From Acidisarcina polymorpha (GTDB lineage Bacteria; Acidobacteriota; Terriglobia; Terriglobales; Acidobacteriaceae): a stretch of 64,000 nt of DNA. Shown in pieces: positions 11,114 through 57,009 of this stretch. The notes under the pieces are model-generated. The model ran no database searches, was not told the origin of the DNA, and saw only the letters and a list, made by a program, of their open reading frames with translations. Numbering within the stretch: the stretch's first letter is position 1; the number at the start of each line of letters is the position of its first letter. Made by a program: the position numbers and the translations under genes. The stretch is from the NCBI RefSeq assembly GCF_003330725.1, contig NZ_CP030840.1, forward strand, positions 6,690,116-6,754,115, written 5' to 3'.

Positions 11114-14100
11114 ATGCCGCTTCTACCCGATGAAGCGCGCACATCCAGGAGCGCGTCTGTGAATTCCCCAAGACTCTTGTCATCGCAAAGCCCTCGGGAT
11201 CTCGAGGCTATTGTCCTCGAGCACTACACGTGGCTGCTTGACTGGGCGCATCAGCTAACCCGCGGGACCTCAGAAGAAGCCGAAGATCTGGTGCAGGACC
11301 TGTTTGTCCGCTTTATGCGGATGAAGAATAAGCCGGATCTTCCGGATGATGACCAGGCCCGCGCGTATCTCTATAAAGCACTTAGAAACCTCTTCCTCTC
11401 AAAACGGTTACGGCATGGCCACGACGCCGTAGCTGGCCTCCTGGTGGTCGATTTCGATTCCGTAGCGTGGGCCATGTCCGCAGTTGATCGCAGCAAACTA
11501 CTGTACGTACGCAGCGATCTAGCCCGCATCTGTGAATACGCCTGCATCCGGCGCAAGTCGAGTCGTGTAGCCGCGGCCTTAATCCTTCGGTTCTTTATTG
11601 GCTATCTGCCTACGGAGACGATGGCCATTCTCAAGTCGAAGCGCGCCGGAATTGACACTCTGACGCAGACGGCGAGGCTTGAGGCAAAAGCCTATCTGGA
11701 ACGGCCGAGTGTGCTTCGGTTTCTCGACCGCAGCGACAAGCGGCCGCAAGCCTCGTCGAAAAATCTTCCCGAAGAATCCGATGCACTTTTTGCGGAATTG
11801 CTCCACAGGATCTTCGCAGAACCGGAAGGTCAATGCTTTCCCGCCGGCGTTCTCAAAGACCGCTACGGAACATCGATAGAGAGTCCCTTTAGCACCGATG
11901 AGATCGCCCACCTGGTCAGTTGCCACGCTTGTCTTCACTTGGCCACCGAGATACTGGCCTTACCCGACCTGACACTGCAGTTCCTTCCCGACATCCCCTC
12001 GTCGGGAGAGGCCGGACCGCCAGCAGCCTGGTCTGAAAAAACTGATCTGAAAAAACTCCGGCGTAAGCTTCGCGAAACCTACGAACACAGGCCGTCGAAG
12101 CTTCAGATCATCGTCGATGGAGTAGTGCGAGGAGTTCAGACGATCACAGGAGCTTCCAGTAAGGTTCAGATTGCACTTCAGCCTCTCTCGAAGCCCGGCT
12201 TTGTCGAGATTCTCAGTGAACAGGGATTAGGGCTGCTTTATCTCGATCTCCAACCGGATGAGACCGGGCTTCCAAACACGCAATACGCCGAGGTCGAGCT
12301 GAGCGACGGGCGGCAACTCTCTGTTTCGCTCACTTGTAGCGAGGGGGTGCCGGTGGTCCATGTCTCCTACTACGATCCATTGTTCGAACCGGAGGGCGAA
12401 GGCCCTCCCTCGGGGGCTGCGGAATCGAGTAAAGCTCTGGTGTCAGTATCGTCTCTTAGCCGCCAGCCCTATCTGGGAGAAAGAGGCCCCCACAGTTGGC
12501 TTGATCGGCTGCGGCATCGGTTGCGTCGCTCGTCGCGACTGATCGGGACTTTTGCTGTCATCGCATGCTGCACGATGGTTGCTCTGCTAGGGCTTCTAGA
12601 CCAATCAAGAGGCAAGAAGCCCACCCTGGACGCCTTCACACTTCTTTCCCGGTCCGAGGAAGCGCTGAGAACCTCAACGCCCGCGCATGGAGCCGTCCGA
12701 AGCAGATTCGACCTCGAAGTCACCGACAGCTATGGTCACACAGCAAACGACCTTGAGGTCGAGGCATTGCGCAGTGCCGATCGGCCCCTGCGAGTGGTCC
12801 GGCTGCGTGCACAGAACGGAACGGTGGTGGCAGCGCAAGAGATCAACGCTGCGGGAAAGGAGAGCGAATTCTCAAATCACCACGCGCAGTCGTCTCTGAA
12901 AGCTGAGTTCGAAACCGTCTCCACAGATGGGGTCTGGCAGAACGCGCCAGATGTCAGAAGCTTCGAAGACCTAGCGGCCGGCGCAAACAACGTCTCCGTC
13001 ATCGAGGTGAAGGATGGGTACGACATTGGGTTCAGGCGAGCCGCGACAGTGGACCGGCCAACCATCGTCGAGGCGACCCTACACATCGCGTCGGACTCCA
13101 TGCGACCTGTTGCGGAAACCCTGGAACTACAGCAAGGAAACACCAGACGGAAGTACCGATTCAGAGAGGTAGCGTATGAAGTCGTTCCTGCTTCGGAAAT
13201 TCACGACGCCGATTTCCGGCCGGCTTCCATGTCAGAGGCCACGCATCTGTCGACGCCGGAAGGCGGCAACGCCACAACAGATACCGCGCAACTCATACTC
13301 CAGATTCTGGAGGCTCTGAGCAAGCAGCAGCAACCGGTTCAGGACAGCATCGATGTGGAACGAGGACCGGACGACAAAGTGACGATCAGCGGGGTGCTTC
13401 CATCGTCGTCAGAAAAGCAAGCCTTCATGCGATCGCTGAAATCGGTGCAAGGGTTCAACACGCTCACGATGGACTTGCATTCCCTGGAGGACCAACAAAC
13501 AGCCGAATCCTTTGCGGCAAAGACTTTGATGGTGAGCAACCCAATTTCGATCTCGGATGGGCGTATAGCGTTAGACGGCGTGCTGCGAGATCCGCTGCAA
13601 GCGCAAGGCATCGAGGGTTCTGAACTGGACACTCGCGTTCACGCATCGGCGGCTGCCCTGGTTGAGGCTGGCGCGGAGCTTCACCGGGAAGCCTGGTTGG
13701 CCGACCAGATAGCCACAAAGGACTTTCGAGCAGACGAGTTGCAGGCCATGCGGCCAGATAAGCGGGCGAGATGGCTTGCCTTGCTCAAACTGCATCTCGA
13801 TGCGTGCGCAAACCATGCGAAAGTGATTGCCAAGTCTTTAGATCCCCCCTCTCAATCGCAGGATTCGATAACAGCGACAACGGCCGCCCAGCCGTTCCCT
13901 ACCGTGACTGACTTCCAAAATGGATTCACGGCTCTCGTTCGAGTCACGTCGGAGCTGGACTCTTCTCTAGCCTCAGGATTTGCAATCTCGCCCGAATCAC
14001 AATCGCCTTCCGTCACTTCCGCTGAGTTGGAAGAGCTCATCACTAACCTCCAAGCTGAGGAGCGCAGGCTCGAAGCCACCGTCGACCGCCTCCGCAATGC

Positions 14101-14125
14101 CATCCCGCAGCGAAGCAAGACATAA
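11114..14125 (+). CDS. ECF sigma fused to membrane/extracytoplasmic module
   Basis: 1003 residues. Residues ~25-100 look like sigma-70 region 2 (LEHYTWLLDWAHQLTR, EEAEDLVQDLFVRFMRM, ARAYLYKALRNLFLSKRL); ~130-200 occupy the region-4 position (SRVAAALILRFFIGYLPTET). A CHAC motif near 270 recalls anti-sigma zinc-binding segments. A single membrane segment lies near 475-493 (LIGTFAVIACCTMVALLGLL). The remainder should be extracytoplasmic: a beta-rich part, a BON-like stretch near 745-795 and a terminal coiled coil (~965-1000). It thus combines what FecI and FecR do in other lasso loci. It ends 44 bases before the receptor gene and probably controls receptor and isopeptidase. Domain boundaries are approximate; how a membrane-tethered sigma would act is unknown. 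Confidence 0.75.
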   Translation: MPLLPDEARTSRSASVNSPRLLSSQSPRDLEAIVLEHYTWLLDWAHQLTRGTSEEAEDLVQDLFVRFMRMKNKPDLPDDDQARAYLYKALRNLFLSKRLRHGHDAVAGLLVVDFDSVAWAMSAVDRSKLLYVRSDLARICEYACIRRKSSRVAAALILRFFIGYLPTETMAILKSKRAGIDTLTQTARLEAKAYLERPSVLRFLDRSDKRPQASSKNLPEESDALFAELLHRIFAEPEGQCFPAGVLKDRYGTSIESPFSTDEIAHLVSCHACLHLATEILALPDLTLQFLPDIPSSGEAGPPAAWSEKTDLKKLRRKLRETYEHRPSKLQIIVDGVVRGVQTITGASSKVQIALQPLSKPGFVEILSEQGLGLLYLDLQPDETGLPNTQYAEVELSDGRQLSVSLTCSEGVPVVHVSYYDPLFEPEGEGPPSGAAESSKALVSVSSLSRQPYLGERGPHSWLDRLRHRLRRSSRLIGTFAVIACCTMVALLGLLDQSRGKKPTLDAFTLLSRSEEALRTSTPAHGAVRSRFDLEVTDSYGHTANDLEVEALRSADRPLRVVRLRAQNGTVVAAQEINAAGKESEFSNHHAQSSLKAEFETVSTDGVWQNAPDVRSFEDLAAGANNVSVIEVKDGYDIGFRRAATVDRPTIVEATLHIASDSMRPVAETLELQQGNTRRKYRFREVAYEVVPASEIHDADFRPASMSEATHLSTPEGGNATTDTAQLILQILEALSKQQQPVQDSIDVERGPDDKVTISGVLPSSSEKQAFMRSLKSVQGFNTLTMDLHSLEDQQTAESFAAKTLMVSNPISISDGRIALDGVLRDPLQAQGIEGSELDTRVHASAAALVEAGAELHREAWLADQIATKDFRADELQAMRPDKRARWLALLKLHLDACANHAKVIAKSLDPPSQSQDSITATTAAQPFPTVTDFQNGFTALVRVTSELDSSLASGFAISPESQSPSVTSAELEELITNLQAEERRLEATVDRLRNAIPQRSKT

Positions 14126-14169
14126 CACCAGACCTTCAAATTCATGGCTCATCGAGCTCGAGGATACCT

Positions 14170-17100
14170 ATGCGACTGAATGTGACGCTTTGTCGAACTT
14201 TCGCTTTCTGTATAGCACTTTTTCTGCTGCTTCAATCTTCTCAACTCGCAGCATTTGCGCAGGGCGCCTCAGCTGGCCTCTCGATTGCGGTATCCGATCC
14301 CTCAGGAGCGTTGGTGCCCGACGCCACCGTGGTGATCCGCAATACGGACACCAATCAGGAGCAGCGCGCGAGCAGTGGCAAGAGGGGGGCGAGTCAGTTT
14401 TCGTATCTGAAACCAGGTCCCTACAAGATCATCATTTCGAAGTCTGGATTTGTCGACCTAGCCGTAGACAAAATCCTGCTGAATCTTGGGGACGAAAAGG
14501 TCCTGCAGTTTGTCTTGAAAGTTGGCTCGGCTGATCAAACGGTTACGGTCGATGGCAGTGGCGCGACGATCAACACTATAGATGCCTCGGTCAGTACGGT
14601 TGTCGACATACAGTTCGTAGCCAATATGCCGCTCAATGGTCGCAGCTTTCAAGACCTGATTCTGTTGACGCCCGGCGTGACCACCAGCAGTCCGCAGCAA
14701 GGTGGATCGAGCGGAGGCACGGGCGAATTCAGTGTTAACGGGCAGCGTACCCAGTCACATGTGTATATCGTCGATGGCGTAAATGCCAACACAGGAGGAG
14801 GTACCACTGGCCAAGGAACGCCGGGAACTAGCGGCAACCTTCCAGCAGCTACTGCGCTGGGGACGACCCAAAGTTTGGTATCGGTCGACGACCTCCAAGA
14901 GTTTCGTGTAAGCAACTCAAGCTACTCAGCAGAATATGGTTTATCTCCAGGTGGCCAATTCTCATTCCAGACTCGCTCTGGAACTACCGATCTTCATGGC
15001 TCAGCTTTTGACTACTTGCGGAATAACGATTTCGACGCGGATAACTGGTTCAACGACAATACAGAGCCAATCACCAAAAAACCCGCTGAACGCCAGAACG
15101 ATTTCGGAGGTACCCTTGGCGGTCCAGTTTGGCTTCCCGTCATTATATGACGGAAGAAATAGGTCCTTCTTCTTCTTCTCGTATGAAGGTCTTCGCCTCG
15201 CGCAACCTCAGGCTGCAATAACTACTTATGTCCCGTCCGCGTCGCTGCGCGCAAGTGCGCCGGCTGCGCTTCAGCCTGCACTCAATGCTTTTCCTGCGCC
15301 AACCGGTGCCGCGCTCGCTAATGGCCTCGCGCCTTTTGTCGGCGCATCTTCCTCTCCGAGCAGCCTAGATTCGACGAGCATCCGATTTGATCAACAACTA
15401 GGCCCTCGGCTCAAGCTTTTCGTCCGCTTCGCAGATACCCAAAGCATCACAGAATCACGAAGTACATTAGGTTTATCCCAGGTTGAGCGCACATCTCAGA
15501 GCAACTATACGAGTACGTTTGGGGCCACCGTCATCCTCTCTCCGTCGAGTACGAACGACTTCCGTTTCAATTACACATCGAGCACGGGCGCTGGTTCAAG
15601 CACGATAGACAACTTCGGAGGGGCTCAACCCGCGAACCTATTGCAACTTCAGGGCATAAACCCGTCTGGGGGACCTGCATACGCATCTTTCGCATTGTAC
15701 TTCCCAGGGTACGAAACAGCACTGACACAGTATCACGATAGCCAGCCTCAAGACTCTCTGGATATCAACGATAGCACGACCGTTGCACTTAGTCGGCACA
15801 CACTAAAGGTTGGCGTGGATTTCCGCAGGATCGCATCAGCACTCGCTCCGTGGTCCCCACTAGTCGAAATACTGTTCAACAGTTCCGCCGGGGTACTCAA
15901 TGATCAATCGCTATATGGCGCATCTGAGATCAAGGCAGCTTCATACCCAGCGTACAAAACTTTTGCCGCCTATATTCAAGATGAATTAAAAGCTAGCCAA
16001 AGACTTAATCTATCGCTCGGACTGCGTTGGGAAGTAGATCCGCCTCCGGATTCGACGAACGGCCCTTTGCCATATATCGTTGTAGGCAACGCCAGTGTCC
16101 CTTCCAGTCTGAGCCTCGCGCCGGAAGGTAACTCCTTCTGGCAGACAACCTACTACAACTTTGCCCCGCGGATTGGTCTCGCGTACAGTGCCAACAATAA
16201 GCACGGCTCTGAAACAGTCATTCGAGCAGGCGGCGGAGTATTTTTTGACGCGGGACAGCAACAATCAACGCAGTCTTTTGTAAACGGTATAGGGAATGTC
16301 GCAGAGGCACTGTATTTCGGTGCAAGTTATCCGCTTACTCCTGCTCAAGTGAATGTCCCGTCCACCAATCCCCTCGCAGCGCCATATAAGGCTGAAGGGT
16401 ATTACTATCCGCAGCACACGCAACTTCCGTATACATGGCAGTGGAACCTGAGTCTCGAGCAAGCGCTCGGAGCTGCCCAAACCTTTACTTTGTCCTATGT
16501 CGGCAGCAACGGCCGACGGCTCTTATCGCAACAAGAACTCGCGACGGCAAGCGCCTTCCCGCTTGGAGTTTTGATTCAATCATCTGACACAACCTCCAGC
16601 TATAACGCCTTACAACTCAAATTTCAGCGAACTGTCAGCCGCGGTTTGCAACTTTTGGCGTCGTACAACTGGGCTCACTCTATCGATTTTGGATCGCAAG
16701 ACGTTGCGTTTGCGCAAATTCGTGGCAATTCAGATTTCGACATCCGGGATAACTTTAATCTTGCTGCAACCTACGAGGCTCCTAAAGCAAAGTCCGGCGA
16801 ATTGATAGACGCAATCGTCAATCAGTGGTCGTTCGATACCCGTTTCGCTGTCAGAGGTGGATTCCCGGTCATTCTGGATGGAAATGCTATCACCCTCTCC
16901 AACGGTCAGGAAGCATTTCAGGGATTAGATTTAGTTCCCAACACGCCCATCTATCTCCGTCTCCCCGGCCTGCCCGGAGGTCGGGAGGTTAATCCGGCGG
17001 CGTTCTCCTTGCCCACTGGCACCGCTTACGGAGACGCGCCGCGCAATTTCGTACGTGGTTTTGGGATGAATGAACTCGATCTGGGTATCCGCCGGACGTT

Positions 17101-17311
17101 TCCACTTGTTGATCGATTGAACCTTCAGTTCAGAGCAGAGGTCTTCAATCTTTTGAACCATCCTAACTTTGGATATATCGAGCCTCTCTATGGCAACCCG
17201 CGATTCGGCCAAGCCACCAAAACACTGAACGAAAGCCTAACCAACCTAAACTCGCTTTATCAGCAAGGCGGCCCTCGCTCAATACAGCTATCGCTACGGC
17301 TTGAATTCTAG
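14170..17311 (+). CDS. TonB-dependent receptor (Oar-like), one-base frameshift
   Basis: About 1047 residues if the frameshift is bridged. The N-terminus has a signal peptide (FAFCIALFLLLQSSQLAAFA), a carboxypeptidase-regulatory-like domain (SGALVPDATVVIRNTDTNQE) and the plug (PLNGRSFQDLILLTPGV, VYIVDGVNANTG, EYGLSPGGQFSFQTRSGT). The rest is the outer-membrane barrel ending in a terminal aromatic (SLRLEF). Frame one stops at 15150 and frame two carries on from PSLYDGRNRS; an extra C in the run at 15136-15138 explains it. Between the sigma fusion and the isopeptidase, it is the expected importer of the lasso peptide. The defect may be real and recent or a sequencing error, since all else is intact. 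Confidence 0.85.
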
Positions 17312-17369
17312 TCGTGGACAAATCAGTCCTAGTTTAATTCTAACTTTCCAATCATTCTCGGAGCTTTCG

Positions 17370-19682
17370 ATGATAAATCACATGGCGAGGTGTCGTGATC
17401 TGTTCCTTGCTAGCATAGTTGTCTGCAGCGCCCAACAGCCATTGGCGACCAAAGCCCTTCCGTTCACGGTGAAGGACTCGATCGAAATGACTACTTTTAG
17501 CGATCCAGACACTCGGCTCTCGAATGCCGAGGGTCAACGAGCGCCGGACGGCAAACACTTTTTCATAATCACTACCCGCGGGATTCTTCGCACAAACCAA
17601 TTGGGATCAATTCTCTGGTATATTTCTGCAGGAGATGTGAAGAGCTATTTGCACACACGCTCCGCTCTCGCGCCGAAACCACACCTTTTAGTTAAGATAC
17701 TTGGAACTCCGAAAGCGCAACAGACCGACTCCTATGGTTCCCTAATTACTCAGGCGCGGTGGTCTACAGATTCGAAGACTATTTTTTTTCTTGCTGAGCA
17801 ACCCGATGGCCATCGTCATCTTTTTCGCACAGGTCTATCTGATAAGAGGCCTACTGATTTGACTCCAGGGAAAATGGACGTCTCCGGATTTAGCGAGGCG
17901 GGAGGGACAATCGCGTATATCGTCGCTGAGCATCCGCTACCCCCAAAGGTAATCGGAGGACGGATAGACGACGCGTCCACAGACTTGACAGGGCTTTCTT
18001 TGTTTCAAATCCTGTTTCCGAAGACGTTTCCAGACGAATCCTCACTATGGCCTGCACTCGATCTCTGGGTCCATTTCAGAGGTGTGAACAGAAAGGTGAA
18101 CGCAGGCGGCAAATGGTACTTTCCGGCGTCCGCCAAAGGTCTCCGAGTGGCTGTGTCGCCGAACGGCAGGGCTTTGATTGCGGCCCGGCCCGTTCCCGAA
18201 GTCCCCGTGGAATGGCATCGATACAAAACGGCTAATGATACGTATAACTTTTCCACGACTAGTACAGGCACGGACCCTTCCGGAAGACAATTCACCTGGC
18301 CGTGGCAATACATCTACGTCGATCTTAGCAGCATGAAGGTCGTCCCCCTCGTCAATGCTCCATCCGGATTTATTTTTGGCTACCGTGATTCACTCGAGGC
18401 TGTTTGGTCGCGGGATAGCGCGGCCGTATTGTTCACGAATACCTATCTACCACTTCAGAGCACCTCAGGGACGGCTAATGTACGAAATGAAGTCGCGTGC
18501 GCTGCTGCCGTATACACGGTTGCGAGCAGATCCCCTAGTTGCGCAGTTTATACCGAATATCCAAAAGGAATAGATGGTGTTGCATTTGGCCGGTCAACCG
18601 ACGAAGTTCTTCTTCATTGGAAGGGCGAAAGCTCCGCTACTACGGAGGCCTATCGAAAGGTGCAGCAAGAGTGGAATCTGGGATCCGAAGTTGTCTCTCA
18701 AGAAGAGCCGCAATCAGAGCTAAAACTATTCATCCGGCAGGATATCAATGAGTCCCCCAAGTTGTGGGTATCTGACCCGCGGACTGTTGAGGAGAAAGAA
18801 TTGTGGGATCCAAATCCGCAGCTCTCGTCGTTCGATCTTGGACGAGCCTCAATCTACAGTTGGAAAGACAATTCCGGCGGCGAGTGGCGCGGTGGCCTGG
18901 TGTTCCCGCCTAATTTTGTACGAGGACATCGATATCCTTTAGTAATCCAGACTCACGGCTTCCCTAATGAGCACGAGTTCCTAGTGGACGGATCATTCAC
19001 TACGGGCTTTGCGGCGCGACCATTGGCGGCCGGCGGGGCGATGGTCTTGCAGATGGGAAGCCGTTCGGGTAGAAACTCCGGTTCAGCCAAAGACGAGGCA
19101 CGCATACAGATTCTCGGATTCAAATCCGCCATCGATCAACTCGACCGAGATGGACTAATCGACTCCTCTCGAGTCGGCCTCATCGGTTTCAGCCGTACCG
19201 CCTGGTATGCAGAGGAAGCTCTCGTGCTTGAACCTCACCTTTTTCATGCCGCCAGCATCATTGATGGAGTCGACCAGAGCTACATGAACTACATGCTGTT
19301 TTCTCCCGAAAACCCTTGGGGTGCAGTCGATGAGGAAGCAGTTAATGGTGGAAAGCCCTTTGGATCTGGACTTCAGTCCTGGACAAAGAACGCAGCCGGA
19401 TTCAACCTTGACAAAGTTCAAGCCCCCGTCCGTATTGAAGCTCTTGGCGACACTGCGATTCTAGAAGAATGGGAGATATATTCGGCTTTGCGTCAACAAG
19501 GCAAGCCCGTAGACCTCGTGAATCTGCCGAACGCCCAGCACATATTGCAGCAGCCGCAAGATCGTTATGCCTCGCAGCAAGGGAACGTCGATTGGTTCCG
19601 ATTCTGGTTGCAGGGATATAAAGATCCCGATCCGAGCAAGAAGGAGCAATATGTGCGGTGGGATAAGCTCCGACCTAAGTAG
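17370..19682 (+). CDS. Lasso-peptide isopeptidase (Atxe2-type)
   Basis: 770 residues from the ATG at 17370, which has GGAG at 17360; an upstream open extension overlaps the receptor end and is unlikely. N-terminal signal-peptide-like segment (LFLASIVVCSA), then VKDSIEMTTFSDP and the propeller start (GKHFFIITTRGILRTN), which are typical of isopeptidases next to TonB receptors in lasso loci. The C-terminal hydrolase has nucleophile Ser608 in LIGFSRTAWY, the IDGVDQSYMNY block, Asp694 in LGDTAI and His724 in NAQHIL. It is expected in the periplasm, cutting the isopeptide bond so that the imported lasso is linearised. Convergent with the precursor gene across a hairpin. Confidence 0.88.
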   Translation: MINHMARCRDLFLASIVVCSAQQPLATKALPFTVKDSIEMTTFSDPDTRLSNAEGQRAPDGKHFFIITTRGILRTNQLGSILWYISAGDVKSYLHTRSALAPKPHLLVKILGTPKAQQTDSYGSLITQARWSTDSKTIFFLAEQPDGHRHLFRTGLSDKRPTDLTPGKMDVSGFSEAGGTIAYIVAEHPLPPKVIGGRIDDASTDLTGLSLFQILFPKTFPDESSLWPALDLWVHFRGVNRKVNAGGKWYFPASAKGLRVAVSPNGRALIAARPVPEVPVEWHRYKTANDTYNFSTTSTGTDPSGRQFTWPWQYIYVDLSSMKVVPLVNAPSGFIFGYRDSLEAVWSRDSAAVLFTNTYLPLQSTSGTANVRNEVACAAAVYTVASRSPSCAVYTEYPKGIDGVAFGRSTDEVLLHWKGESSATTEAYRKVQQEWNLGSEVVSQEEPQSELKLFIRQDINESPKLWVSDPRTVEEKELWDPNPQLSSFDLGRASIYSWKDNSGGEWRGGLVFPPNFVRGHRYPLVIQTHGFPNEHEFLVDGSFTTGFAARPLAAGGAMVLQMGSRSGRNSGSAKDEARIQILGFKSAIDQLDRDGLIDSSRVGLIGFSRTAWYAEEALVLEPHLFHAASIIDGVDQSYMNYMLFSPENPWGAVDEEAVNGGKPFGSGLQSWTKNAAGFNLDKVQAPVRIEALGDTAILEEWEIYSALRQQGKPVDLVNLPNAQHILQQPQDRYASQQGNVDWFRFWLQGYKDPDPSKKEQYVRWDKLRPK

Positions 19683-19720
19683 CATTTTGGCTGACACAGA
19701 CTTCCGGCGGTCTCTCCAGA

Positions 19721-19763
19721 CTCACTTGGGGGCCGGGTCCGTGAACTCTGCCCCCTTGGTGAG
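19721..19763. terminator. Bidirectional terminator-like hairpin
   Basis: Arms CTCACTTGGGGGC (19721-19733) and GCCCCCTTGGTGAG (19750-19763) pair over 11 bp with a small internal loop, in the 89-base gap between the convergent isopeptidase and precursor genes. No long T-run on either side. Confidence 0.45.
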
Positions 19764-19771
19764 GTAACAAG

Positions 19772-19912
19772 CTATTCGTCGGCGGGATATCCCCCGACGG
19801 TCGCAGGTTCGAGAGGATTTATGCTGTCTGGCATATTGCCGTTGAGCTTGCCGCCTTGGATTAGCAAGGTCGCGTTGATTGAGTTGAGTACTTTCGGTGC
19901 GATGTATTTCAT
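19772..19912 (-). CDS. Lasso-peptide precursor (46 residues)
   Basis: The start ATG (19912) follows AGAGGT. The leader begins MKYIAPKV, giving the YxxPx(L/V) motif that B1 proteins bind in lasso leaders, with Tyr3, Pro6 and Val8. Counting 16-17 residues from Tyr3, as in known precursors, puts the cut around IQ|GG or IQG|GK (residues 19-21). From Gly21, Asp29 is residue 9 (GKLNGNMPD), compatible with a nine-residue ring. The core would be ~26 residues and ends GGYPADE. Odd: no Thr at the penultimate leader position, and a long Pro-rich tail. It lies last in the biosynthetic operon, 86 bases after the cyclase. Precursor identity is inferred from motif and position; ring assignment is tentative. 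Confidence 0.78.
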   Translation of the reverse strand: MKYIAPKVLNSINATLLIQGGKLNGNMPDSINPLEPATVGGYPADE

Positions 19913-19998
19913 GATTGACCTCTTTTGTTTCTGAATTTCCACGTGTTAGCCTTCCCGGTGAAAGCTCGGCCGCCACGCGGATCTTTGTCACTCCTGCA

Positions 19999-21864
19999 TC
20001 AGGAGTTGAAATCCGCTTGCCCAAGTGTTTTTGCGGGTCGCCTCATCCACAACTCCAACTGAATGGCGAGCAGAAGATGCTGGCTGGTTGAACAGGAGAG
20101 AGCATCGAACTTCGCAATCGAGGACTGAATGTCGATCTCGTCGACATATCCGAGGTCACTCAACCGCGATGAACTCACCAGAGACAATAGCTTGGGTTTG
20201 TTCTCCGTAAGGGCTACCGGAGGACCCCGCATTATGTAGGCCTTTCTCTTACGTTCCAATACCTCGACGGGGACGATTTTCTGTAGCGCTCTACGCATCA
20301 ATAAACGTCTGCGGCCCGGACGCATGAGTTGATTTGCGGGGACGCGAAGAAGAAAGTCCGCGAGCTCTCGGTCAAGGAACGGATACCGATACTCTCTTCT
20401 TGCAAGCAAGCGCCGAGACGGCAAGATTAAGGTTTCCATGATCGACCACCACACGAGTCCGTTCTCGATAGAACTCGGGAGATAGCCGATCCTTTTCCAA
20501 GAGGTTCCTTGAAACCGCAAACGTACAGCCCGCTTACGAAGTGATGCCGAGAGCCAACTGGGGAAAGCCACCGGAGTTCGCGACTGCCTGATATAAAGTC
20601 GGACGGCGAGAGCCCCCGCATCGCGAATGAGATGGACCAAGGGGACTCTGTTTGAAAGTCCCCACTCAAGACCTTGGCTCAATAAGGTACTGAGTTGTAG
20701 AGATACCAAGGAGTCAGCCAGCTCAGGAAGAGGATCAGGCGGTCCCCCTAAGAGCTCATCGCCGCCGATGCCGGAAAGCATCACGCGATACTGTCCGACG
20801 GCAAGTTGATCCTCCAATTTGGTTTCGGCGCTGAGGGTTCGTCCGTCGGGTCCCGGCCAGACATATTCCATATCCGGCGGTTCAAAGGTAGCGCCTCTTG
20901 ACGAAACTTCGATATGCAGCCCCCTCTTGCCTCGAGCCCGTTCGACCGCGACGAAGTAGGGCTTTTCATTCCAATTCGGTTCAGAATCGTCGTAATACGA
21001 GATGGTGTTGATGAGGTCGGCAGGGGTTGCGCCTTGGGCCTTACGTACATGGTCCGACATGCAGACGATCGAACTTGAGTCGACACCGCCGCTCAACTCC
21101 GCTAGGATTGACGCTCCCGGGCCCGTTCTCCGCTCCACTGCCTGCTGAAACAGCTGAAAGAAGTGCTCATCATATGCCGCGTCCGTGCCATAACGAATTC
21201 TCTCTCCCACGGTCGGATCCCAATGAAGCTTCTGCGTCACAATTCGTTCTCGCACGACAAGATAATGTGCCGGTGACACCGCGCGGACATTTTTGTATGG
21301 GGTGAGATCACGAATGGGTTGAGATGAGAGATAGGCTGCGGCGAAGTTCTCATCAAGGCCGTGATCGTTGCGTTCCGCCAGCAGGGGCTCCAAATGAGTT
21401 GCCCAGACTATATCTGCCTTCGTCAGTTCGTAATAAAGGGTCCTGGTCCCCGCATGATCGCGCGCGAGATACAGCGCCCTCTCCGCGAGAATCCACAACG
21501 CGAGCGCCCAGTCTCCCACAAAGCGCGAAAAACAGGTCTCTCCCCAGCGTGAAAACGATTCGAGGACGATCATTGAATCCGGAGTGTGCTCCAGCTTGAG
21601 GTCCAGCAAACTGCAAAGCTCGGCGGAGTTATCAAGACGCCCATCAAACGTGACCATAGCTCCTTGCAAGTCTGTCCCAGGCTGAGACTCCAACCACGAC
21701 CGCTGATGCGTGTGGTAGGGCTGGAAGCCCATACCAATTCTTCCCTTGACCTTCAGAAACGTTCCATCTGGGGCATACCGATCGGTTGTCGACGCCATGC
21801 GACGCAAGAACGGCTCTTCAACAGAGTGACCTTCAGCCTGGCGAATTCCGAACAAAATGCTCAT
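19999..21864 (-). CDS. Lasso cyclase (asparagine-synthetase-like, protein C)
   Basis: 621 residues. The N-terminal glutaminase-like domain starts MSILFG: the catalytic Cys2 of true asparagine synthetase is Ser, and the fold is kept (TFDGRLDN, FVGDWALALWI, RDHAGTRTLYY). The synthetase domain has the PP-loop ELSGGVDSSSIVCMSD (Ser258 onwards), LSGIGGDELLGG, and REYRYPFLDRELADFLLRVP. This matches lasso C proteins, which adenylate a core Asp/Glu side chain and close the ring on Gly1. GAGGA precedes the ATG, 17 bases after B2. Cytosolic. Confidence 0.9.
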   Translation of the reverse strand: MSILFGIRQAEGHSVEEPFLRRMASTTDRYAPDGTFLKVKGRIGMGFQPYHTHQRSWLESQPGTDLQGAMVTFDGRLDNSAELCSLLDLKLEHTPDSMIVLESFSRWGETCFSRFVGDWALALWILAERALYLARDHAGTRTLYYELTKADIVWATHLEPLLAERNDHGLDENFAAAYLSSQPIRDLTPYKNVRAVSPAHYLVVRERIVTQKLHWDPTVGERIRYGTDAAYDEHFFQLFQQAVERRTGPGASILAELSGGVDSSSIVCMSDHVRKAQGATPADLINTISYYDDSEPNWNEKPYFVAVERARGKRGLHIEVSSRGATFEPPDMEYVWPGPDGRTLSAETKLEDQLAVGQYRVMLSGIGGDELLGGPPDPLPELADSLVSLQLSTLLSQGLEWGLSNRVPLVHLIRDAGALAVRLYIRQSRTPVAFPSWLSASLRKRAVRLRFQGTSWKRIGYLPSSIENGLVWWSIMETLILPSRRLLARREYRYPFLDRELADFLLRVPANQLMRPGRRRLLMRRALQKIVPVEVLERKRKAYIMRGPPVALTENKPKLLSLVSSSRLSDLGYVDEIDIQSSIAKFDALSCSTSQHLLLAIQLELWMRRPAKTLGQADFNS

Positions 21865-21881
21865 CCCAGTTCCTCACACTT

Positions 21882-22259
21882 TCAGCAGCGCTCCAGCACC
21901 TGATAAATGTCGGCCATGTATGGCTTGTCGTTCACGACAGCGCCACCAATCTCAACCCATGCGTGCGATGCCAGTGGCACAATTTGCGCGCCAATCACCA
22001 TCTCCGCGCTCCATCCATGCCGGCGCAGGAGCAATGTCGTGGTACAGGAATGCTGAAGACACAAGACACGCTTGAAATAAAGAACGCACGCGTAATCCAC
22101 TGCTCGGGAAAGGAGCACATGGGGAACGAGATCATTGGGTTTCGCTTCGATGACGGGTTGCCGGCGCACGATCTCGTGCATCTTCTTCAGCCCCTGCCTG
22201 CGCATGACCCATTCGAGATGGAGCAGGATGATCCAGCTCTCAATGACATACCGCTTCAT
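21882..22259 (-). CDS. Lasso leader peptidase (protein B2)
   Basis: 125 residues from the ATG at 22259, which follows a strong AGGAGGT; the open frame runs further up but into the preceding gene. Transglutaminase-like B2 fold: Cys67 in RVLCLQHS, LLLRRHGWSAEMVIGAQ, His99 in ASHAWVEIGG and Asp111 in VVNDKPY form the expected Cys-His-Asp triad. It removes the leader after B1 presents the precursor. It overlaps the oligopeptidase gene by about 20 bases, which suggests translational coupling. Confidence 0.88.
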   Translation of the reverse strand: MKRYVIESWIILLHLEWVMRRQGLKKMHEIVRRQPVIEAKPNDLVPHVLLSRAVDYACVLYFKRVLCLQHSCTTTLLLRRHGWSAEMVIGAQIVPLASHAWVEIGGAVVNDKPYMADIYQVLERC

Positions 22260-24279
22260 CTTGACCTCCTGCAGGCTGCGTAATGCCAAGCTCCCGCGAC
22301 AGGAACGCAGTTCTGCGCGCAAGAGACTCTACACGGACCGAAAACGGCAGCGTGGGCATGTGACCCCTCTCGTCGCTGTAATCAACAATCACAGGCGATC
22401 TCTGAGCGGGGCAATTCTGAAGACGGGCCGCCATCTTGCGAACGTGCGCAGGATTGCAGCGATCGTCTCGGTCACCCGCGACAAACATGGTGGGAGGATA
22501 GTCGACTTTGACTTCGACGCGGTGATAGGGGGAATAAGAAAGGAGTGCTTGAAAGTCTTCCGGATCTTCGACTGTGCCGTATTCATCGCGCCATCGTGCG
22601 GCCCGATCGAAGTATTCGTAGCGAACCATGTCCAGGAGTGGGGCGATACAGAGGACCGCACCGAATAAGTCTGGCCGCTGCGTCATGGCGGCAGCCACCA
22701 TCAAACCAGCGTTCGAGCCGCCAAAAATACCAAGCTGCTTGGGCATCGTGTTCCCGCAATTGCAGAGCCATTCTCCGGCGGCGAGCAGGTCATCAATGCC
22801 GGTTTGCCGATTTCGCTTGGATCCTGCTTCGTGCCATCCTTTGCCGAACTCACCTCCGCCCCTGATGTGCGCAAGCGCAAGGGTCGCGCCGCCTTCCATC
22901 AGGATTGTGGCGAGAACCGAGAATTGTGGAGTGATCGGAGCACCAAAGCCACCGTAAACGGTAAGAATGACAGGAGCCTGTCGTTCTGGGAGCCGTTCAA
23001 CCATTCGGACGAGCGTGATCGGAATATCCGTGCCGTCCTTCGCAGGAAAGACATGGCGAGTCACCGTGGAGGCGAGGCTCCGTTCTCCGATCGAACGCTG
23101 ATGAAATACTCGGGATCTACCTGCAACGCAGTCGTATTCGAAAATAGTCGGCGGCTGATGGAATGATTCGAATGCATAGAAAAGCGATTTCTCGTTGATG
23201 CTTCGATGTGGCAGCAACGTAATTGTCCCGCCTTCAGGGGTGTCGACTGAGTCGAGACGTTTTCCGTTCAAAGTCCAGCAGGAGAGAGTTGATGCATCAT
23301 AGTCGAACTGATTCGCGTAGATCCGGTGGCCAGCAGCCCCCATCTGGCGAATAGGTGATGCTCCGCTGCTGATGACCGTCCGAATCTTCTTACCGTCAGC
23401 AGAAAACTCCGCTACTTCGCTGTCCTCATCCCCCGTCGCATAGCGCGCGAAGATGCGCCCTTCATAAAGGAATGGATGAAAGGATGGATTCTTGTCGGAG
23501 AACACCTTGACCCATTGTGGTGCCGGACCCAGAGCCGCAATAAAGAGATCGGTAACCAGTCCCGAACTGCCTTCGTGAAGCCAGATGGCGCCGAGATGTG
23601 TCGTGTCCGCGGTGAGAATCAGCCGACTCTCGCCGGTCCGGGGTGCGCGAAAGATCACCCGTCCGCTGCCAATTTCACCGAAACAATGGAACCTTACGGC
23701 ATGCTCCTCTTTGCTGATCGGGTTTTCGTGGCAGTAGTAGAAGCCGCCTTCTTTCGGTCTCAACACAAGCCCCCGGACGTAACCGGTATCGAGTTTGTCT
23801 TCGAACGTGGTGCCTTGCTTCACATCGATGAAGGCAACTGAGCTCTTGTCCTCCCCGCCGCGTCTCCGTTCGTAAGCCATAAGGGAGCCATCCTCTGATA
23901 TCCGATAGATCGAAACGGAGGAAAATGCTCCCTCAGCCGCCGGGTCAACGAGGAGGCGTTCCCGCCCTGTGGCGATGTCGCGGGTATAGATGCAGCCCTG
24001 CTCCTCACCACGACTCCGACGACGATAGAAATACTGATCTTCGAGCCTGGACGGCTGATCGAGCACCTCGACGTCGAGATGCGATCGGATGCGAGCACGG
24101 ATGTTTTGAAAATTGGGACAGCCCGCGAAGTATTTCTCGCAGATCTGCTGCTGTTCGTGTACCCAGTCATTAGTCTTCGGGAGGCAGCGATCTTCGAGCC
24201 AGCGGTAGGGATCCACGACCCTCGCTCCGTGGATATTCTCGACCACCGGCCCGGAGATATTAGTCAACTCTAGTGGCAT
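22240..24279 (-). CDS. Cytosolic prolyl oligopeptidase (S9A)
   Basis: 679 residues, standard size. The N-terminal DPYRWLED and propeller are followed by the catalytic domain: RGGGEFGKGWHEAG, nucleophile Ser522 in GIFGGSNAGL, Asp region in GDRDDRCNP, and His in ERGHMPTLP. No signal peptide, so it should act in the cytosol, unlike the isopeptidase. S9A enzymes cut short peptides after Pro. Inside a lasso operon and start-overlapped with the kinase gene, it might trim the Pro-rich precursor tail (for example after the Pro of GGYP) or degrade leader pieces; this role is inferred. It is a different subfamily from the Atxe2-type gene. Confidence 0.88.
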   Translation of the reverse strand: MPLELTNISGPVVENIHGARVVDPYRWLEDRCLPKTNDWVHEQQQICEKYFAGCPNFQNIRARIRSHLDVEVLDQPSRLEDQYFYRRRSRGEEQGCIYTRDIATGRERLLVDPAAEGAFSSVSIYRISEDGSLMAYERRRGGEDKSSVAFIDVKQGTTFEDKLDTGYVRGLVLRPKEGGFYYCHENPISKEEHAVRFHCFGEIGSGRVIFRAPRTGESRLILTADTTHLGAIWLHEGSSGLVTDLFIAALGPAPQWVKVFSDKNPSFHPFLYEGRIFARYATGDEDSEVAEFSADGKKIRTVISSGASPIRQMGAAGHRIYANQFDYDASTLSCWTLNGKRLDSVDTPEGGTITLLPHRSINEKSLFYAFESFHQPPTIFEYDCVAGRSRVFHQRSIGERSLASTVTRHVFPAKDGTDIPITLVRMVERLPERQAPVILTVYGGFGAPITPQFSVLATILMEGGATLALAHIRGGGEFGKGWHEAGSKRNRQTGIDDLLAAGEWLCNCGNTMPKQLGIFGGSNAGLMVAAAMTQRPDLFGAVLCIAPLLDMVRYEYFDRAARWRDEYGTVEDPEDFQALLSYSPYHRVEVKVDYPPTMFVAGDRDDRCNPAHVRKMAARLQNCPAQRSPVIVDYSDERGHMPTLPFSVRVESLARRTAFLSRELGITQPAGGQDEAVCH

Positions 24280-25622: not shown

Positions 25623-25648
25623 TTAAAAATCCTTCCCCCGGACAGCCG

Positions 25649-25906
25649 CTACGCCCACAACACCAGACGTTGCGACTTCAGGTTCTCCATAAAGCGGCCA
25701 ACGTCTGCAGCAACGACCTCTCGATCAGTGTCTGTCTCACGAGCAAGCTCTGTGATGATGTCGTCGAGGGGCACTTCTCTCTCCAGGCGTTGCCAGATGT
25801 ACGCCCCGGTGGAGTTAAGGGGAGTGATGGCATTATTTGAGACATCGAGGATGACAGCTCCATCGCGATTAGTGGCATATCGTAGATTGGCCGGAATCAT
25901 AAACAT
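25649..25906 (-). CDS. Lasso leader-binding protein (B1, PqqD-like)
   Basis: 85 residues from the ATG at 25906 (an upstream TTG at 25915 is less likely). PqqD/RRE fold: GAVILDVSNNAITPLNSTGA, YIWQRLE, VPLDDIITELARETD, then DVGRFMENLKSQRLV. It binds the leader YxxP motif and delivers the precursor to B2 and C. First gene of the biosynthetic operon, 26 bases before the kinase. No strong ribosome site is visible. Confidence 0.88.
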   Translation of the reverse strand: MFMIPANLRYATNRDGAVILDVSNNAITPLNSTGAYIWQRLEREVPLDDIITELARETDTDREVVAADVGRFMENLKSQRLVLWA

Positions 25907-26151
25907 GGTTGGCAACTCTGTGATGGCAAATCGATGTTATGCAACCACTTTAGCTCCGGTGGTCACCATAGCAAGGTCCGTAGCGATCTCGTGAAAATCA
26001 TTACGGAACCGATCGCAGCGGGGTGGTGTGAAGTGTCTTTGGATCTCCGTCGGCCCAACTCGATGAGCGAGGAACATTCCATTCGACGGGTGCTACCACA
26101 CCAACTGTAAGCAAGAGTCTGCTACGGGCCATGACAAGATGCAATTGAAAC

Positions 26152-26172
26152 TAGGTCGCAGGATGCGACAAA
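26152..26172 (-). promoter_or_regulatory. 21-base palindromic element upstream of lasso operon
   Basis: On the minus strand it contains GTCGCATCCTGCGAC (six-base arms around TCC) and is identical over 21 bases to 36875-36895. It lies ~245 bases upstream of B1, in the same orientation to the operon as the second copy to its kinase. Likely a shared operator. Confidence 0.55.
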
Positions 26173-26224
26173 GTGAAAGGCCTTCGTAAGGCTCGCTATG
26201 GATCAGCGCTACAGTGGCTAGAAG

Positions 26225-26704
26225 CTAGATCGGTTCTCGCACGCCGGAAGCCAGGCGCTCCCGTTTCTTGGTCTTCTCGCGTTCGCGGCGGCCCCACGCC
26301 GACGGTGTTTCATGCATGTGCTTATGAAAGAACCGCGCGAAGTCCCGGACCTCATCGTAGCCGAGCAGGTTGGCAATCACACTCAACTTGGTCGGTGGAA
26401 TCATACTGAGAAGCGAGTGTGCAAGACCGAGGCGTGCATCGATTTGGCATTGGAGCATTGTCTTCCCAATTTCTTCATTGAACGCCCGCTCCAATGTTCG
26501 CATCTCCACACCCAGTTCATTCGCGATCGGCGCCATACGCAATTTCACGTGACCGTGAAAGGTAAGGATGATGTTGTGCATCGCGCGAGCGGGATTCTTC
26601 AGGATCGAAGACAGATCCTCTTCGTGCGAAAACCTGAGGGCGCGAATGCGCTCGATCGCTTGCTTCTCTATGGGGGAAAGTTCTTCTGGCACGCGATTCG
26701 ACAC
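26225..26704 (-). CDS. AraC-type DNA-binding protein, short
   Basis: 159 residues from GTG at 26704, with GAGGA upstream. Contains the two helix-turn-helix units of AraC proteins (MAPIANELGVEMRTLERAFN; LSVIANLLGYDEVRDFARFF then HKHMHETPSAWGRRERE) after ~55 residues of helical N-terminus; no cupin/sensor domain. It may be a natural short form or a gene that lost its N-terminus. Located just upstream of the lasso operon, next to the 21-base element, so a candidate regulator. Confidence 0.8.
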   Translation of the reverse strand: MSNRVPEELSPIEKQAIERIRALRFSHEEDLSSILKNPARAMHNIILTFHGHVKLRMAPIANELGVEMRTLERAFNEEIGKTMLQCQIDARLGLAHSLLSMIPPTKLSVIANLLGYDEVRDFARFFHKHMHETPSAWGRREREKTKKRERLASGVREPI

Positions 26705-27116
26705 AAAGCGGTCCTCAGGTCAGCAACGCAACACACGCTATTCAGCACCTGGAAAAAGTTCTACGGTCTACAGATTCATGCGGGGTTGGTTGCTATTTGC
26801 GATGGCTCTTCCACGGTACTAGCAAGGCCTATCGCGCCGTCACGGAGAACCTCGAGCAGAGTTCCTGCCGACATAACTGCAGTCGTTGGCTGGAATGCCC
26901 GACCCGTATCGAGAAGACGCTCGCAACTAATGCGGGAGCGTCTTCACGGAGCGTCTTGCTGGCCATCGATGCACTGGTGCGCCGCTGGCTGGGGACAGAA
27001 AAAGTGGGACTCTCATGGCACTCTTCCTCCTTGAATTGCGCGCTGCTCTGTCAGGACCACACCTTCGGTTCTAGCAACAAGGGTAAAGCAGTTCGCTCTC
27101 AAAGAAAACTACGCCA
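26705..27116. other. Intergenic between AraC gene and exporter
   Basis: 412 bases without a supported gene; presumably holds divergent promoters for the AraC gene and the ABC exporter. Confidence 0.4.
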
Positions 27117-28895
27117 ATGTTCCGATGTCAACCAACCAAAACGGTCACGCACCTCGCCGCAACAACTGTCGGGGATTCTCAATGGCTCCTTGGTCGGTTG
27201 CGCCCACACGCTAAGCTAGTGGGTTTTGGGCTAGTCACGGCGATCTTCGCCGGCGCAATTGCAACCCTCGATCCACTCCTGATGAAATATTTGATCGATA
27301 CGACATTGCCACATAGAAGGCTTTCCGATTCGCTCCTGATAGTCATGTCCTTGGCTCTATGCTTTGTCGGACGATCTGCCCTGAATGGAGGAAGCGGACT
27401 CGTCAGCTTCCGGGTCGCGCAGCTGCTCGCGCAGGATCTTCGCGTGGAGATCATCGCACATATGACACGCTTGTCCGCCGAGTGGCATGAAGGGATCATG
27501 GTAGGAGAAAAGCTGAGTCGGATCGATCAGGATGTGCTCCAGATTTCGCAGATCGGAGCTGAGATGGCTAATGCTGTCGTTCGGAGCGTCGTCTTCTTTT
27601 TTGTAAATTTGGCCATCATGTTCGTACTTAACTGGAAAATGACGATCGTGACGCTTCCTCTCCTGCCTCTGTTCATCTGGGTTCGATCACGATTCCGCGG
27701 AGTGATTCAAGAGCGAGCGGACCAGGCCCAGTCCGACATAGGGCTCGCGTCTGGTGCTCTTGTAGAGCACCTCGGGGCCGTGCCGCAGATCCAACTGCTT
27801 GGCGCCGAGGAGGATCGGATTGGACGGACTGTCGACGCGTGGGCTCGCGTGGTGAGGGCGCAATGGGCTCAGCGACGAACGGAGATCCTGTTTAGTATCT
27901 CCGTAACGAGTGTGCTAGCCATCGCCATTCTTCTGGTCCTCGGTTTCGGAATACACGAATACTTTCTTGACCTCCTAACATTAGGCGGCCTCGTGGCGTT
28001 CTACACCTATGTCACCCGCATCTTCGAGCCGGTATCTACAGCTCTGGAACTATACTCGAGGGCGCAGCGCATGCTGGCCAGCGTTCGGCGCGTGCGAACC
28101 ATCCTTTCTACTGAGCCAACAGTGCCTGACTTGGGCAAAATCGCAGAGATCAGGCTGCCACTATCGACAGGCCTGCGTTGCGACTTGGTGTCCTTTGCGT
28201 ATCGATCGAATGAAAATGTGTTGCACCGTGTCTCACTGCAGATCGGAGATCGCGAAAACGTGGCCATTGTCGGCAGGAGCGGGTCCGGAAAATCAACCCT
28301 CTCAAAGCTACTCGCCCGCATCGCGGATCCAACGGCCGGAACGGTTCTGATTGATGGTCGTCCCGCGTTTGAGTATTCGTTGCGCGCTCTCCGTCAGACA
28401 ATCTGCTATGTGCCACAACACCCAGTCCTGTTTTCCGGAACGATAGGAGAGAACTTGCGGATGGCCAATCGAAATGCAACGGACAGCATGCTCCAACAGG
28501 TGATCGACATTGCTCAGTTGAGCTCCGTCATGTTTCGTTTACCGAGGGGTCTGGACACGATCGTTGGCCCTGAAGCCGCCGGGCTTTCCGGAGGAGAACG
28601 TCAAAGGCTTGCGATTGCAAGAGCGCTGTTGCGAAACTCATCGATCCTCATACTGGACGAATCCACATCTGCGCTTGATCTTCCCACGGAACAAGCTCTC
28701 CTACAGGCGGTCGCTGATTATTGCAGAGATACAGCACTGGTATTGATCTCCCATCGCTTGCGTTCCTTGATCTGGGTAGATCGTGTCATCCTTCTCGAAG
28801 GCGGCCATGTAGTGGCCGAAGGGACTCACGGTTTGCTTTACAAGGGCTCTAAGCTCTATCAGGCCCTATACGACAACGAGACTGAAGACGGGTAG
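27117..28895 (+). CDS. ABC exporter (McjD-like, protein D)
   Basis: 592 residues, a half-transporter with permease and ATPase in one chain. Membrane segments are visible around residues 35-55, 75-95, 150-195 and 255-290. The ATPase carries Walker A GRSGSGKST, Q-loop ICYVPQHPVLF, signature LSGGERQR, Walker B SILILDEST, D-loop SALD and H-loop LISHRL. There is no peptidase C39 domain, as expected for a lasso exporter because B2 removes the leader. It faces away from the biosynthetic operon. Export of the lasso peptide is inferred from context. Confidence 0.88.
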   Translation: MFRCQPTKTVTHLAATTVGDSQWLLGRLRPHAKLVGFGLVTAIFAGAIATLDPLLMKYLIDTTLPHRRLSDSLLIVMSLALCFVGRSALNGGSGLVSFRVAQLLAQDLRVEIIAHMTRLSAEWHEGIMVGEKLSRIDQDVLQISQIGAEMANAVVRSVVFFFVNLAIMFVLNWKMTIVTLPLLPLFIWVRSRFRGVIQERADQAQSDIGLASGALVEHLGAVPQIQLLGAEEDRIGRTVDAWARVVRAQWAQRRTEILFSISVTSVLAIAILLVLGFGIHEYFLDLLTLGGLVAFYTYVTRIFEPVSTALELYSRAQRMLASVRRVRTILSTEPTVPDLGKIAEIRLPLSTGLRCDLVSFAYRSNENVLHRVSLQIGDRENVAIVGRSGSGKSTLSKLLARIADPTAGTVLIDGRPAFEYSLRALRQTICYVPQHPVLFSGTIGENLRMANRNATDSMLQQVIDIAQLSSVMFRLPRGLDTIVGPEAAGLSGGERQRLAIARALLRNSSILILDESTSALDLPTEQALLQAVADYCRDTALVLISHRLRSLIWVDRVILLEGGHVVAEGTHGLLYKGSKLYQALYDNETEDG

Positions 28896-35562: not shown

Positions 35563-35588
35563 GGAATCGGGCCAAGGAGGATAGAACC

Positions 35589-36895: not shown

Positions 36896-36952
36896 CTTTT
36901 TGTTGTTTCTACGGAAGAGGGATGGGAAACTTTGTTCGGAATCGTTTGTGCT

Positions 36953-56998: not shown

Positions 56999-57009
56999 TC
57001 GGAGAAGAC

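Follow-up and report, generated by a model that had tools for sequence, protein, structure and literature searches.

Lasso systems of the astexin type are laid out around an isopeptidase, a TonB receptor and a sigma regulator. Other lasso peptides are phosphorylated, and BsfK, the kinase of the Bradymonas system, is described as distantly HPr-kinase-like, with <35% identity (PMC10368454, PMC9266682, accessible text). Kinase and oligopeptidase genes have already been listed, as uncharacterised, in soil-metagenome clusters (PMC9064862, PMC12670498), and the accessible text of these two papers assigns neither gene a function. One such cluster, 482.1, is known from annotation only, with no product detected in E. 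coli; expression there of clusters with acidobacterial best matches likewise yielded no products (PMC9064862, accessible text). The constructs of PMC12670498 omitted the peptidase genes, and one cluster was expressed, which was traced to Gammaproteobacteria (accessible text). Here, we describe a locus in a stretch of 64,000 nt from Acidisarcina polymorpha (NZ_CP030840.1, positions 6,690,116-6,754,115; 'the window', whose positions are used below unless a contig is named). The original prediction, of a lasso-type locus with a kinase, a cytosolic S9A prolyl oligopeptidase and a one-piece sigma/membrane protein, was right. Its description of the gene set as unusual does not hold within Acidobacteriota, where the identical gene order recurs in dozens of loci. 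We judge it probable, at roughly 0.64, that this is a lasso-type locus of Acidobacteriota for a ribosomally synthesized and post-translationally modified peptide (RiPP) that is modified by the kinase, here called KIN, exported and re-imported, and that it includes an exchangeable cassette.

Results

Gene content of the locus

The genes of the locus are as follows.

11114-14125, plus strand: sigma/membrane fusion; ECF sigma domain (Sigma70_r2, 32.8 bits), transmembrane residues 473-498 (hydropathy), C-terminal half of ~500 residues
14170-17311, plus strand: TonB-dependent receptor (CarboxypepD_reg, plug, OMP_b-brl_4), with a frameshift within 14936-15150
17301-19682, plus strand: isopeptidase-like S9 enzyme of lasso type; best family match NF033523, at 159 bits against a cut-off of 400
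19772-19912, minus strand: precursor gene A; six-frame motif scan, ribosome-binding site and start codon, translation, similar genes behind the cyclases of relatives
19847-19849, minus strand: codon of core Lys3, the conserved Lys
19826-19828, minus strand: codon of Asp10, the likely ring acid, 7 residues past Lys3
19799-19801, minus strand: codon of Thr19, the predicted modified residue, four residues ahead of the C-terminal Tyr
19999-21864, minus strand: lasso-type cyclase C, 621 aa (NF033535, PF00733)
21882-22259, minus strand: B2 leader peptidase (NF033537, 69.9 bits, cut-off 33); start preceded by an AGGAGG ribosome-binding site
22240-24279, minus strand: S9A prolyl oligopeptidase (PF02897 and PF00326, E ~1e-41); triad Ser522/Asp605/His640, no hydrophobic segment
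24270-25622, minus strand: KIN, a Nudix-fold N-domain and an APH-fold kinase (PF01636, 29.8 bits, cut-off 23.2, residues 143-351)
25649-25915, minus strand: B1, related to RiPP recognition elements and PqqD (PF05402, E=1e-16)
26225-26704, minus strand: AraC-type (HTH_18) regulator, ahead of B1 (PF12833)
27117-28895, plus strand: ABC exporter (PF00664/PF00005)

The minus-strand genes are transcribed in the order AraC, B1, KIN, S9A, B2, cyclase, precursor. Matches to Pfam and NCBIfam profiles place the B1, B2, C, exporter, isopeptidase and TonB-receptor genes where they had been predicted, and KIN and S9A overlap their neighbours as proposed, by 10 bp (KIN/S9A) and 20 bp (S9A/B2). The predicted precursor gene is also present, its position now being that of the last gene in the operon, after the cyclase. 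Open reading frames (ORFs) at 25937-26150, just upstream of B1, were considered as precursors and dropped, as they carry no leader motif. The profile searches suggested with the prediction returned a PqqD-like B1 and a transglutaminase-like B2 of lasso type. The cyclase is closest to the lasso model NF033535 (237 bits, below its cut-off of 525) and further from the asparagine synthase model (151 bits); a better fit to true asparagine synthetase, which would have spoken against the original prediction, was not obtained. The replacement of FecI/FecR by a fusion stands in part: a single chain with a transmembrane segment takes the place of separate sigma and anti-sigma proteins, a fair analogy, and no STN signalling domain was found in the receptor by the Pfam scan.

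Recurrence of the gene set in Acidobacteriota

An order-level cyclase search covered 298 genomes, of which 49, the source genome counted, had a match at 1e-40; a class-level search with a divergent cyclase as query covered 399 genomes, 43 of them with a match at 1e-70. We retrieved 63 of the 64 cyclase places outside the window found by the first search. The omitted one, G147:C13, has its match at the same coordinates as G147:C30 (5273-7114), probably an assembly duplicate. From the second search the matches of all 20 additional genomes were retrieved, as 27 regions. Regions around cyclase matches were annotated with profiles made from the window's own proteins, and of seven loci from named carriers only L078 and L080 entered the analysis, since the remaining five duplicate G loci. 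The resulting set holds 93 loci with a cyclase, including that of the window; two further retrieved regions have no cyclase.

KIN is present in 67 of the 93 loci and S9A in 51 (both in 42, S9A alone in nine, neither in 17, contig-end loci included), so that neither gene is absent from homologous loci at large, the outcome that would have spoken against the original prediction. Where S9A is unfused, KIN precedes it and a B gene follows it in 37 of 48 loci. Among the organisms known by name that have both cyclase and KIN are Silvibacterium bohemicum, whose receptor gene is intact (L036/L076), Granulicella sp. S156, Acidicapsa dinghuensis and Acidobacteriaceae TAA 166. With the window's KIN as sole query, nine of 396 phylum-wide genomes match at 1e-15 and, among the matches listed, all belong to the source organism's family; profile searches find KIN in another family of the class too.

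Neighbouring genes are also joined into single ORFs among 62 loci and the window: S9A-B2 in L053 and L055, KIN-B2 in L056, KIN-S9A in L095, B2-cyclase in L061, and B1-B2 in L096, a KIN-less locus with an aberrant precursor candidate. The S9A-B2 fusion may be a single event, because its two loci are each other's closest relatives on the cyclase tree. Through these fusions S9A and KIN are physically tied to leader removal, which argues against a chance neighbourhood.

Two adjacent cyclase genes, with no KIN or S9A found, occur in L117, L120, L121, L122 and L125; L114, L115 and L127 have two cyclases as well. Paired cyclases may mean two ring closures.

KIN and the residue at -4 from the C-terminal Tyr

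An AlphaFold2 model of KIN (mean pLDDT 85.3) matched corramycin phosphotransferase best in Foldseek (8agy, E=1.8e-8), and also the APH-fold lexapeptide complex LxmKY (9dk3, E=1.4e-6). Modelled alone, the N-terminal 139 residues (mean pLDDT 73.9; last 25 <50) matched Nudix folds (MutT2, 5zro, E=3e-6); the Nudix box, GX5EX7REUXEEXGU, was not seen in a nine-row alignment of this domain. The catalytic columns of the kinase are kept almost throughout 66 sequences (Lys176 in 66, Glu185 in 66, His321 in 62, Asp323 in 65, Asn328 in 63, Asp340 in 66), and no PHROG match to KIN was found at 0.01.

The precursors typically end in A/G/S-Tyr-x-x-Asp-Glu; that of L119 has Phe in place of the Tyr, and those of the two-cyclase loci end in GYxDWE or similar. 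In loci with KIN, the position four residues ahead of this Tyr is Ser or Thr in 73 of 82 precursors (56 of 64 loci), and each of the nine exceptions has Ser/Thr at -5 or -3. The corresponding count for loci with neither KIN nor glycosyltransferases is 0 of 10 precursors (six loci; two have Ser at -3). Fisher's test gives p=1.3e-8 for precursors and p=2e-5 for loci, kinship ignored. This pattern emerged from the first 60-odd loci; among those retrieved afterwards, 14 of 15 KIN precursors fit, and Ser/Thr stands at -4 in none of three precursors from loci without KIN or glycosyltransferases. L048, L106, L118 and L130, whose contigs stop before the operon start, were scored as 'unknown' for KIN; Ser/Thr is at -4 in two of five precursors from such contig-end loci, and a sixth has no Tyr.

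Five two-cyclase loci without KIN (L117, L120, L121, L122, L125) nevertheless have Ser/Thr at -4 in eight of 10 precursors. Each carries at least one glycosyltransferase gene ahead of B2, of family GT4, with a GT8-like gene in addition in three. In kinase-less L086, L088 and L105, the four larger unassigned ORFs that were scanned gave no Pfam kinase or glycosyltransferase; the scan was confined to these ORFs and excluded L066, L089 and L104. We predict that the -4 hydroxyl is the modified residue, which would carry a phosphate where KIN is present and a sugar where glycosyltransferases are; in the window this would be Thr19. The covariation of KIN with Ser/Thr at -4 thus lends support to the phosphate proposed in the original prediction.

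Spacing of Lys and acid in the precursor core

The precursor has 46 residues, with leader MKYIAPKVLNSINATLLIQ, which carries the YxxP motif (MKYIAP), and a predicted 27-residue core GGKLNGNMPDSINPLEPATVGGYPADE. For this core the calculated [M+H]+ is 2695.267 with the ring closed and 2775.233 when a phosphate is present as well. From the leader Tyr to the Ile/Val at -2 the distance is 15 residues in 109 precursors and 14 in seven (116 in all, three mis-parsed rows included). This near-constant distance matches the Tyr(-17) rule, published together with Ile/Val(-2) in Acidobacteriaceae (PMC10368454, accessible text), and the core start is therefore well fixed. Position -2 is Ile in the window and Ile, Val or Phe in 93, 22 and one of the 116 precursors, not the Thr(-2) of lasso leaders. 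For the core counts, three mis-parsed cores were corrected by hand and one core was added, giving 117 precursors.

Candidate ring acids lie at core positions 8 to 17. The canonical lasso positions, 7-9, hold an acid in 39 of 117 precursors, and 53 of 84 loci have no such precursor; the acids of the window's core are at positions 10 and 16. For this reason we use the term lasso-type and do not class the product as a lasso peptide. A Lys is found within the first ten core residues of 116 of 117 precursors. Its distance to an Asp/Glu is 5-8 in 115 and 6-7 in 99 of the 117; these statistics choose a pair spaced 5-8, so their spread is narrowed. The two exceptions are L109, in which Arg replaces Lys, and L047 (G059), a decayed lasso locus with a stop codon in its cyclase gene and a precursor without a Lys-acid pair, which was retained and counted.

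Several comparisons bear on the position of the acid relative to Lys. In the uncorrected set, spacings of 6-7 occur in 95 of 116 precursors; 1000 shuffles within the cores average 19.6 and never exceed 31. Counting from the first Lys to the first acid at least four residues on, 78% of distances fall within one two-wide window; the corresponding share for nine other residue types is 29-49%. Measured from Lys, the position of the first acid has a standard deviation of 1.54, smaller than the 2.42 measured from the core start, where the leader ends (115 precursors, without the 5-8 pair choice and with mis-parsed rows kept). Precursors that share a locus and a single cyclase show the same (core positions of Lys/acid): 7/14, 7/14 and 4/11 in L101; 3/10, 3/10 and 5/12 in L089; 4/11 and 3/10 in L107; 5/11, 6/12 and 6/12 in L095. 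In these four loci the Lys-acid spacing is constant while the N-terminal distance varies, which we read as a ring formed by the Lys side chain; in L116 and in two-cyclase L120 the spacing varies by one.

Closure of the ring from the conserved Lys side chain would fit this pattern, and we regard it as a serious possibility, somewhat short of an even chance. The fuller reading, which we put forward tentatively, is of a new ring class, possibly two-tailed: a side-chain-to-side-chain macrolactam from Lys to an Asp/Glu mostly 6-7 residues on, with a free N-terminal segment of variable length and one tail residue phosphorylated or glycosylated, swapped together with the receptor as a cassette.

A conventional lasso, with the amine of core residue 1 joined to the acid in rings of 8-17 residues and Lys kept for recognition by receptor or cyclase or the like, is a lesser but still substantial possibility. 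At core residue 1, 49 of 115 precursors have Gly, 32 Ser, eight Asn and eight Ala, and 98 of the 115 have a small residue there (Cys being the fifth residue counted), as an N-terminal ring would require; this either favours the conventional ring over Lys closure or merely reflects B2 specificity. The 39 precursors with an acid at 7-9 are in keeping with such a ring, as are L108, L110, L094 and L130, which have Gly-x-Lys and an acid at 8 or 9. It accounts poorly for the 53 loci without any precursor of this kind, for the smaller scatter of the first acid from Lys, and for single-cyclase loci L089, L095, L101 and L107, where the distance from the N-terminus to the acid varies and that from Lys does not (in L116 and L120 the latter varies by one).

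It is unlikely that a second cut beside Lys, perhaps by S9A, first removes the spacer between leader and Lys and frees a new N-terminus for the ring. Lys-acid spacings of 6 and 7 would fit the usual rings of 7-9 residues if residue 1 were Lys or its neighbour, and precursors of S9A loci have a greater distance between leader and Lys (p=0.007, two-cyclase loci excluded, kinship ignored). Nevertheless, Lys is also at positions 4-7 in 13 of 26 precursors without S9A, positions Lys-1 and Lys-2 hold diverse residues, Pro among them, and the leader distance from Tyr(-17) to Ile/Val(-2) is nearly constant. We continue with the Lys side chain as the preferred source of the ring.

A dispensable prolyl oligopeptidase

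S9A has the propeller, the catalytic triad (kept in 47 of 47 sequences) and the lack of a membrane segment expected of a prolyl oligopeptidase (Pfam, hydropathy). Its nearest solved sequence is 2bkl (E=4e-95), with plant peptide cyclase 1 at E ~1e-64. S9A changes 13 times on the cyclase tree, from which we conclude that it is dispensable and that the core chemistry runs without it. A role in tail trimming found no clear support in precursor Pro content (p=0.07) or tail length (p=0.52), and the tail loss suggested in the original prediction is neither supported nor excluded. The residue directly after the C-terminal Tyr is acidic in 59 of 68 cases in S9A loci versus seven of 38 otherwise; among seven independent tree pairs, 2.5 change in the same direction, 0.1 in the opposite one and 4.4 show no difference.

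KIN and S9A might instead serve self-resistance or disposal, with the finished peptide or foreign compounds as their targets, and not be tailoring enzymes. This would suit APH-fold relatives that inactivate antibiotics and the frequent gain or loss of S9A, yet is improbable given the KIN-B2, KIN-S9A and S9A-B2 fusions, the position of both genes among biosynthetic genes, and a -4 Ser/Thr that follows KIN and is mostly kept where glycosyltransferases replace it.

Exchange of the cassette and the conserved neighbourhood

Three genes adjoining the locus enter the comparison.

32980-35562, plus strand: CHAT-TPR protein (PF12770, E=6e-60)
35517-36866, plus strand: S41 peptidase of the C-terminal-processing type (PF03572)
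36932-38440, plus strand: second kinase, a paralogue of KIN (34% identity)

Genome G121, which has another genus code, shares ~164 kb around the locus (G000:C1 6574234-6738193 versus G121:C7) in gapped long blocks that are mostly 95-99% identical, whereas rpoB identity between G000 and G121 is 82-86%. The DNA match falls inside the sigma gene, near 12400. Background proteins are nearly the same (AraC 96%, ABC 94%, CHAT 99%, S41 98%, second kinase 99%), in contrast to those of the exchanged part (receptor 43%, isopeptidase 28%, cyclase 49%, B2 67%, S9A 49%, KIN 42%, B1 43%), and the sigma protein is divided, with 95% identity in its N-half and 61% in its C-half. L097 (G201) shows the same kind of contrast on one side: CHAT 82%, S41 85%, second kinase 77%, AraC 72% and ABC 65%, versus cyclase 34% and KIN 28%. 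In L036 the relation is partly reversed, the cassette being 56-70% identical, the second kinase 35% and the sigma N-half 46%; AraC, ABC, CHAT and S41, however, are at 56-62%. From these contrasts, we conclude that the biosynthesis genes are swapped as one unit together with isopeptidase and receptor; the single pair with G121 suggests that the sensor half of the sigma protein travels with them.

Recent transfer of the shared island, which would then be mobile, and contamination of G121 (contig C7) by a near relative of G000 are both possible, and DNA composition does not separate them; the exchange holds either way. We found no near match to 22 kb of the island in PLSDB, no plasmid-borne cyclase relatives at 1e-40, and no type IV secretion coupling protein (PF02534) within the island. 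Group II intron matches lie at 56854-58810 on the minus strand, DNA that G121:C7 also has at 97%, and a tRNA scan of the 64-kb stretch found none.

The sigma fusion occurs in 14 of the 93 loci; hidden Markov model matches to AraC occur in 19, among them 12 of the 14 sigma-type loci. Extended flanks were compared for 20 hand-picked loci plus L131 and L137. Each of the 10 sigma-type loci in this sample has one or more members of the triad of CHAT, S41 and second kinase (all three in eight, the kinase alone in L055, CHAT and S41 in L061), against 0 of 12 other loci. The triad beside sigma-type loci extends the conserved neighbourhood to ~11114-38440, larger than the 11114-28895 of the original prediction. 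The role of the triad is perhaps a response to the imported peptide. Near the second kinase, no convincing match to a precursor profile or motif was found.

Discussion

Gene content, fusions, covariation and exchange are read directly from the sequences; the chemical steps and the directions of transport and signalling that follow are inferred. B1 would bind the YxxP leader of the precursor, KIN would phosphorylate the Ser/Thr at -4 from the C-terminal Tyr (Thr19), and B2 would cleave after Ile-Gln. The cyclase would then link Asp10 into a macrolactam, for which the conserved Lys is a likelier partner than the N-terminal amine; this is the least certain step. S9A may be an optional cytosolic protease in assembly, with the tail or side products as its substrates. 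Export of the peptide would fall to the ABC protein and its re-import to the TonB receptor; the isopeptidase would open it, and the sigma/membrane fusion would report its uptake. Biosynthesis genes, isopeptidase and receptor behave as the exchangeable cassette, set among more stable neighbours (AraC, ABC, CHAT, S41 and the second kinase, to which one pair adds the sigma half).

Several observations weigh against this model. The direction of peptide transport is assigned by analogy, and the receptor gene of the window is frameshifted: its two ORFs, 14170-15150 and 14936-17311, overlap, while L036 and L040 each have a single ORF of ~1100 aa; either the strain has lost its receptor or the assembly is in error. 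Eight more precursors from kinase-less loci have no Tyr motif at all. The cyclase tree has four changes of KIN and three independent pairs, of which on average 2.9 are concordant with the -4 site and none discordant, numbers with which p<0.05 is unreachable. To these we add the 13 changes of S9A. For the cassette, the sigma N-half of L097 is only 50% identical, the sigma C-half (sensor) of L036, at 31%, does not follow its cassette at 56-70%, and L096, which has no sigma fusion, adjoins a CHAT relative at 30% identity.

A large and little-explored group of acidobacterial clusters thereby gains three predictions: the residue that takes a phosphate or a sugar, the two residues that close the ring, and the genes that travel as a unit. 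Should Lys close the ring, searches aimed at an N-terminal ring have sought the wrong structure, and lasso-type cyclases would be broader catalysts than thought. A private system for signalling or uptake that is under diversifying selection would be expected to exchange receptor and isopeptidase together with the peptide.

Compared with astexin-type systems, the locus has in addition a kinase, S9A, an ABC exporter and the triad; its sigma and membrane parts form one chain, and its receptor is without STN in the Pfam scan. LxmKY, a class V lanthipeptide kinase complex, likewise uses an APH-like fold in a RiPP pathway (9dk3), and no partner lyase was found among the scanned locus genes. Metagenomic cluster 482.1 (PMC9064862) and the Group II clusters (PMC12670498) share the order B1, APH kinase, B2, C, A, with a prolyl oligopeptidase between core genes, as far as their accessible text goes. 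The presence of kinase and oligopeptidase genes in clusters from Acidobacteria or soil is thus already in print, as is Ile/Val(-2). In the open full text consulted, supplements and subscription papers aside, we came across no description of the -4 site, the Lys spacing, the cassette or the neighbourhood; the precursor position after the cyclase, the -4 site, the Lys-acid spacing and the cassette swap appear to be new. With the phosphorylated lasso peptides (paeninodin, ThcoK/SyanK, pseudomycoidin, and BsfK of Bradymonas), the locus shares split B1/B2 proteins, a cyclase and a kinase acting, here putatively, on the precursor, and with Bradymonas also the leader Ile(-2) (PMC10368454, PMC9266682, accessible text). 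According to the same accessible text, those kinases act on a C-terminal Ser or on Ser3, whereas the site predicted here is a Ser/Thr nine residues from the C-terminus, the window's core having Glu as its C-terminal residue and Lys at position 3. Unlike the HPr-kinase-like lasso kinases, a class that includes PadeK, ThcoK and BsfK, KIN combines an APH fold with a Nudix-fold N-domain.

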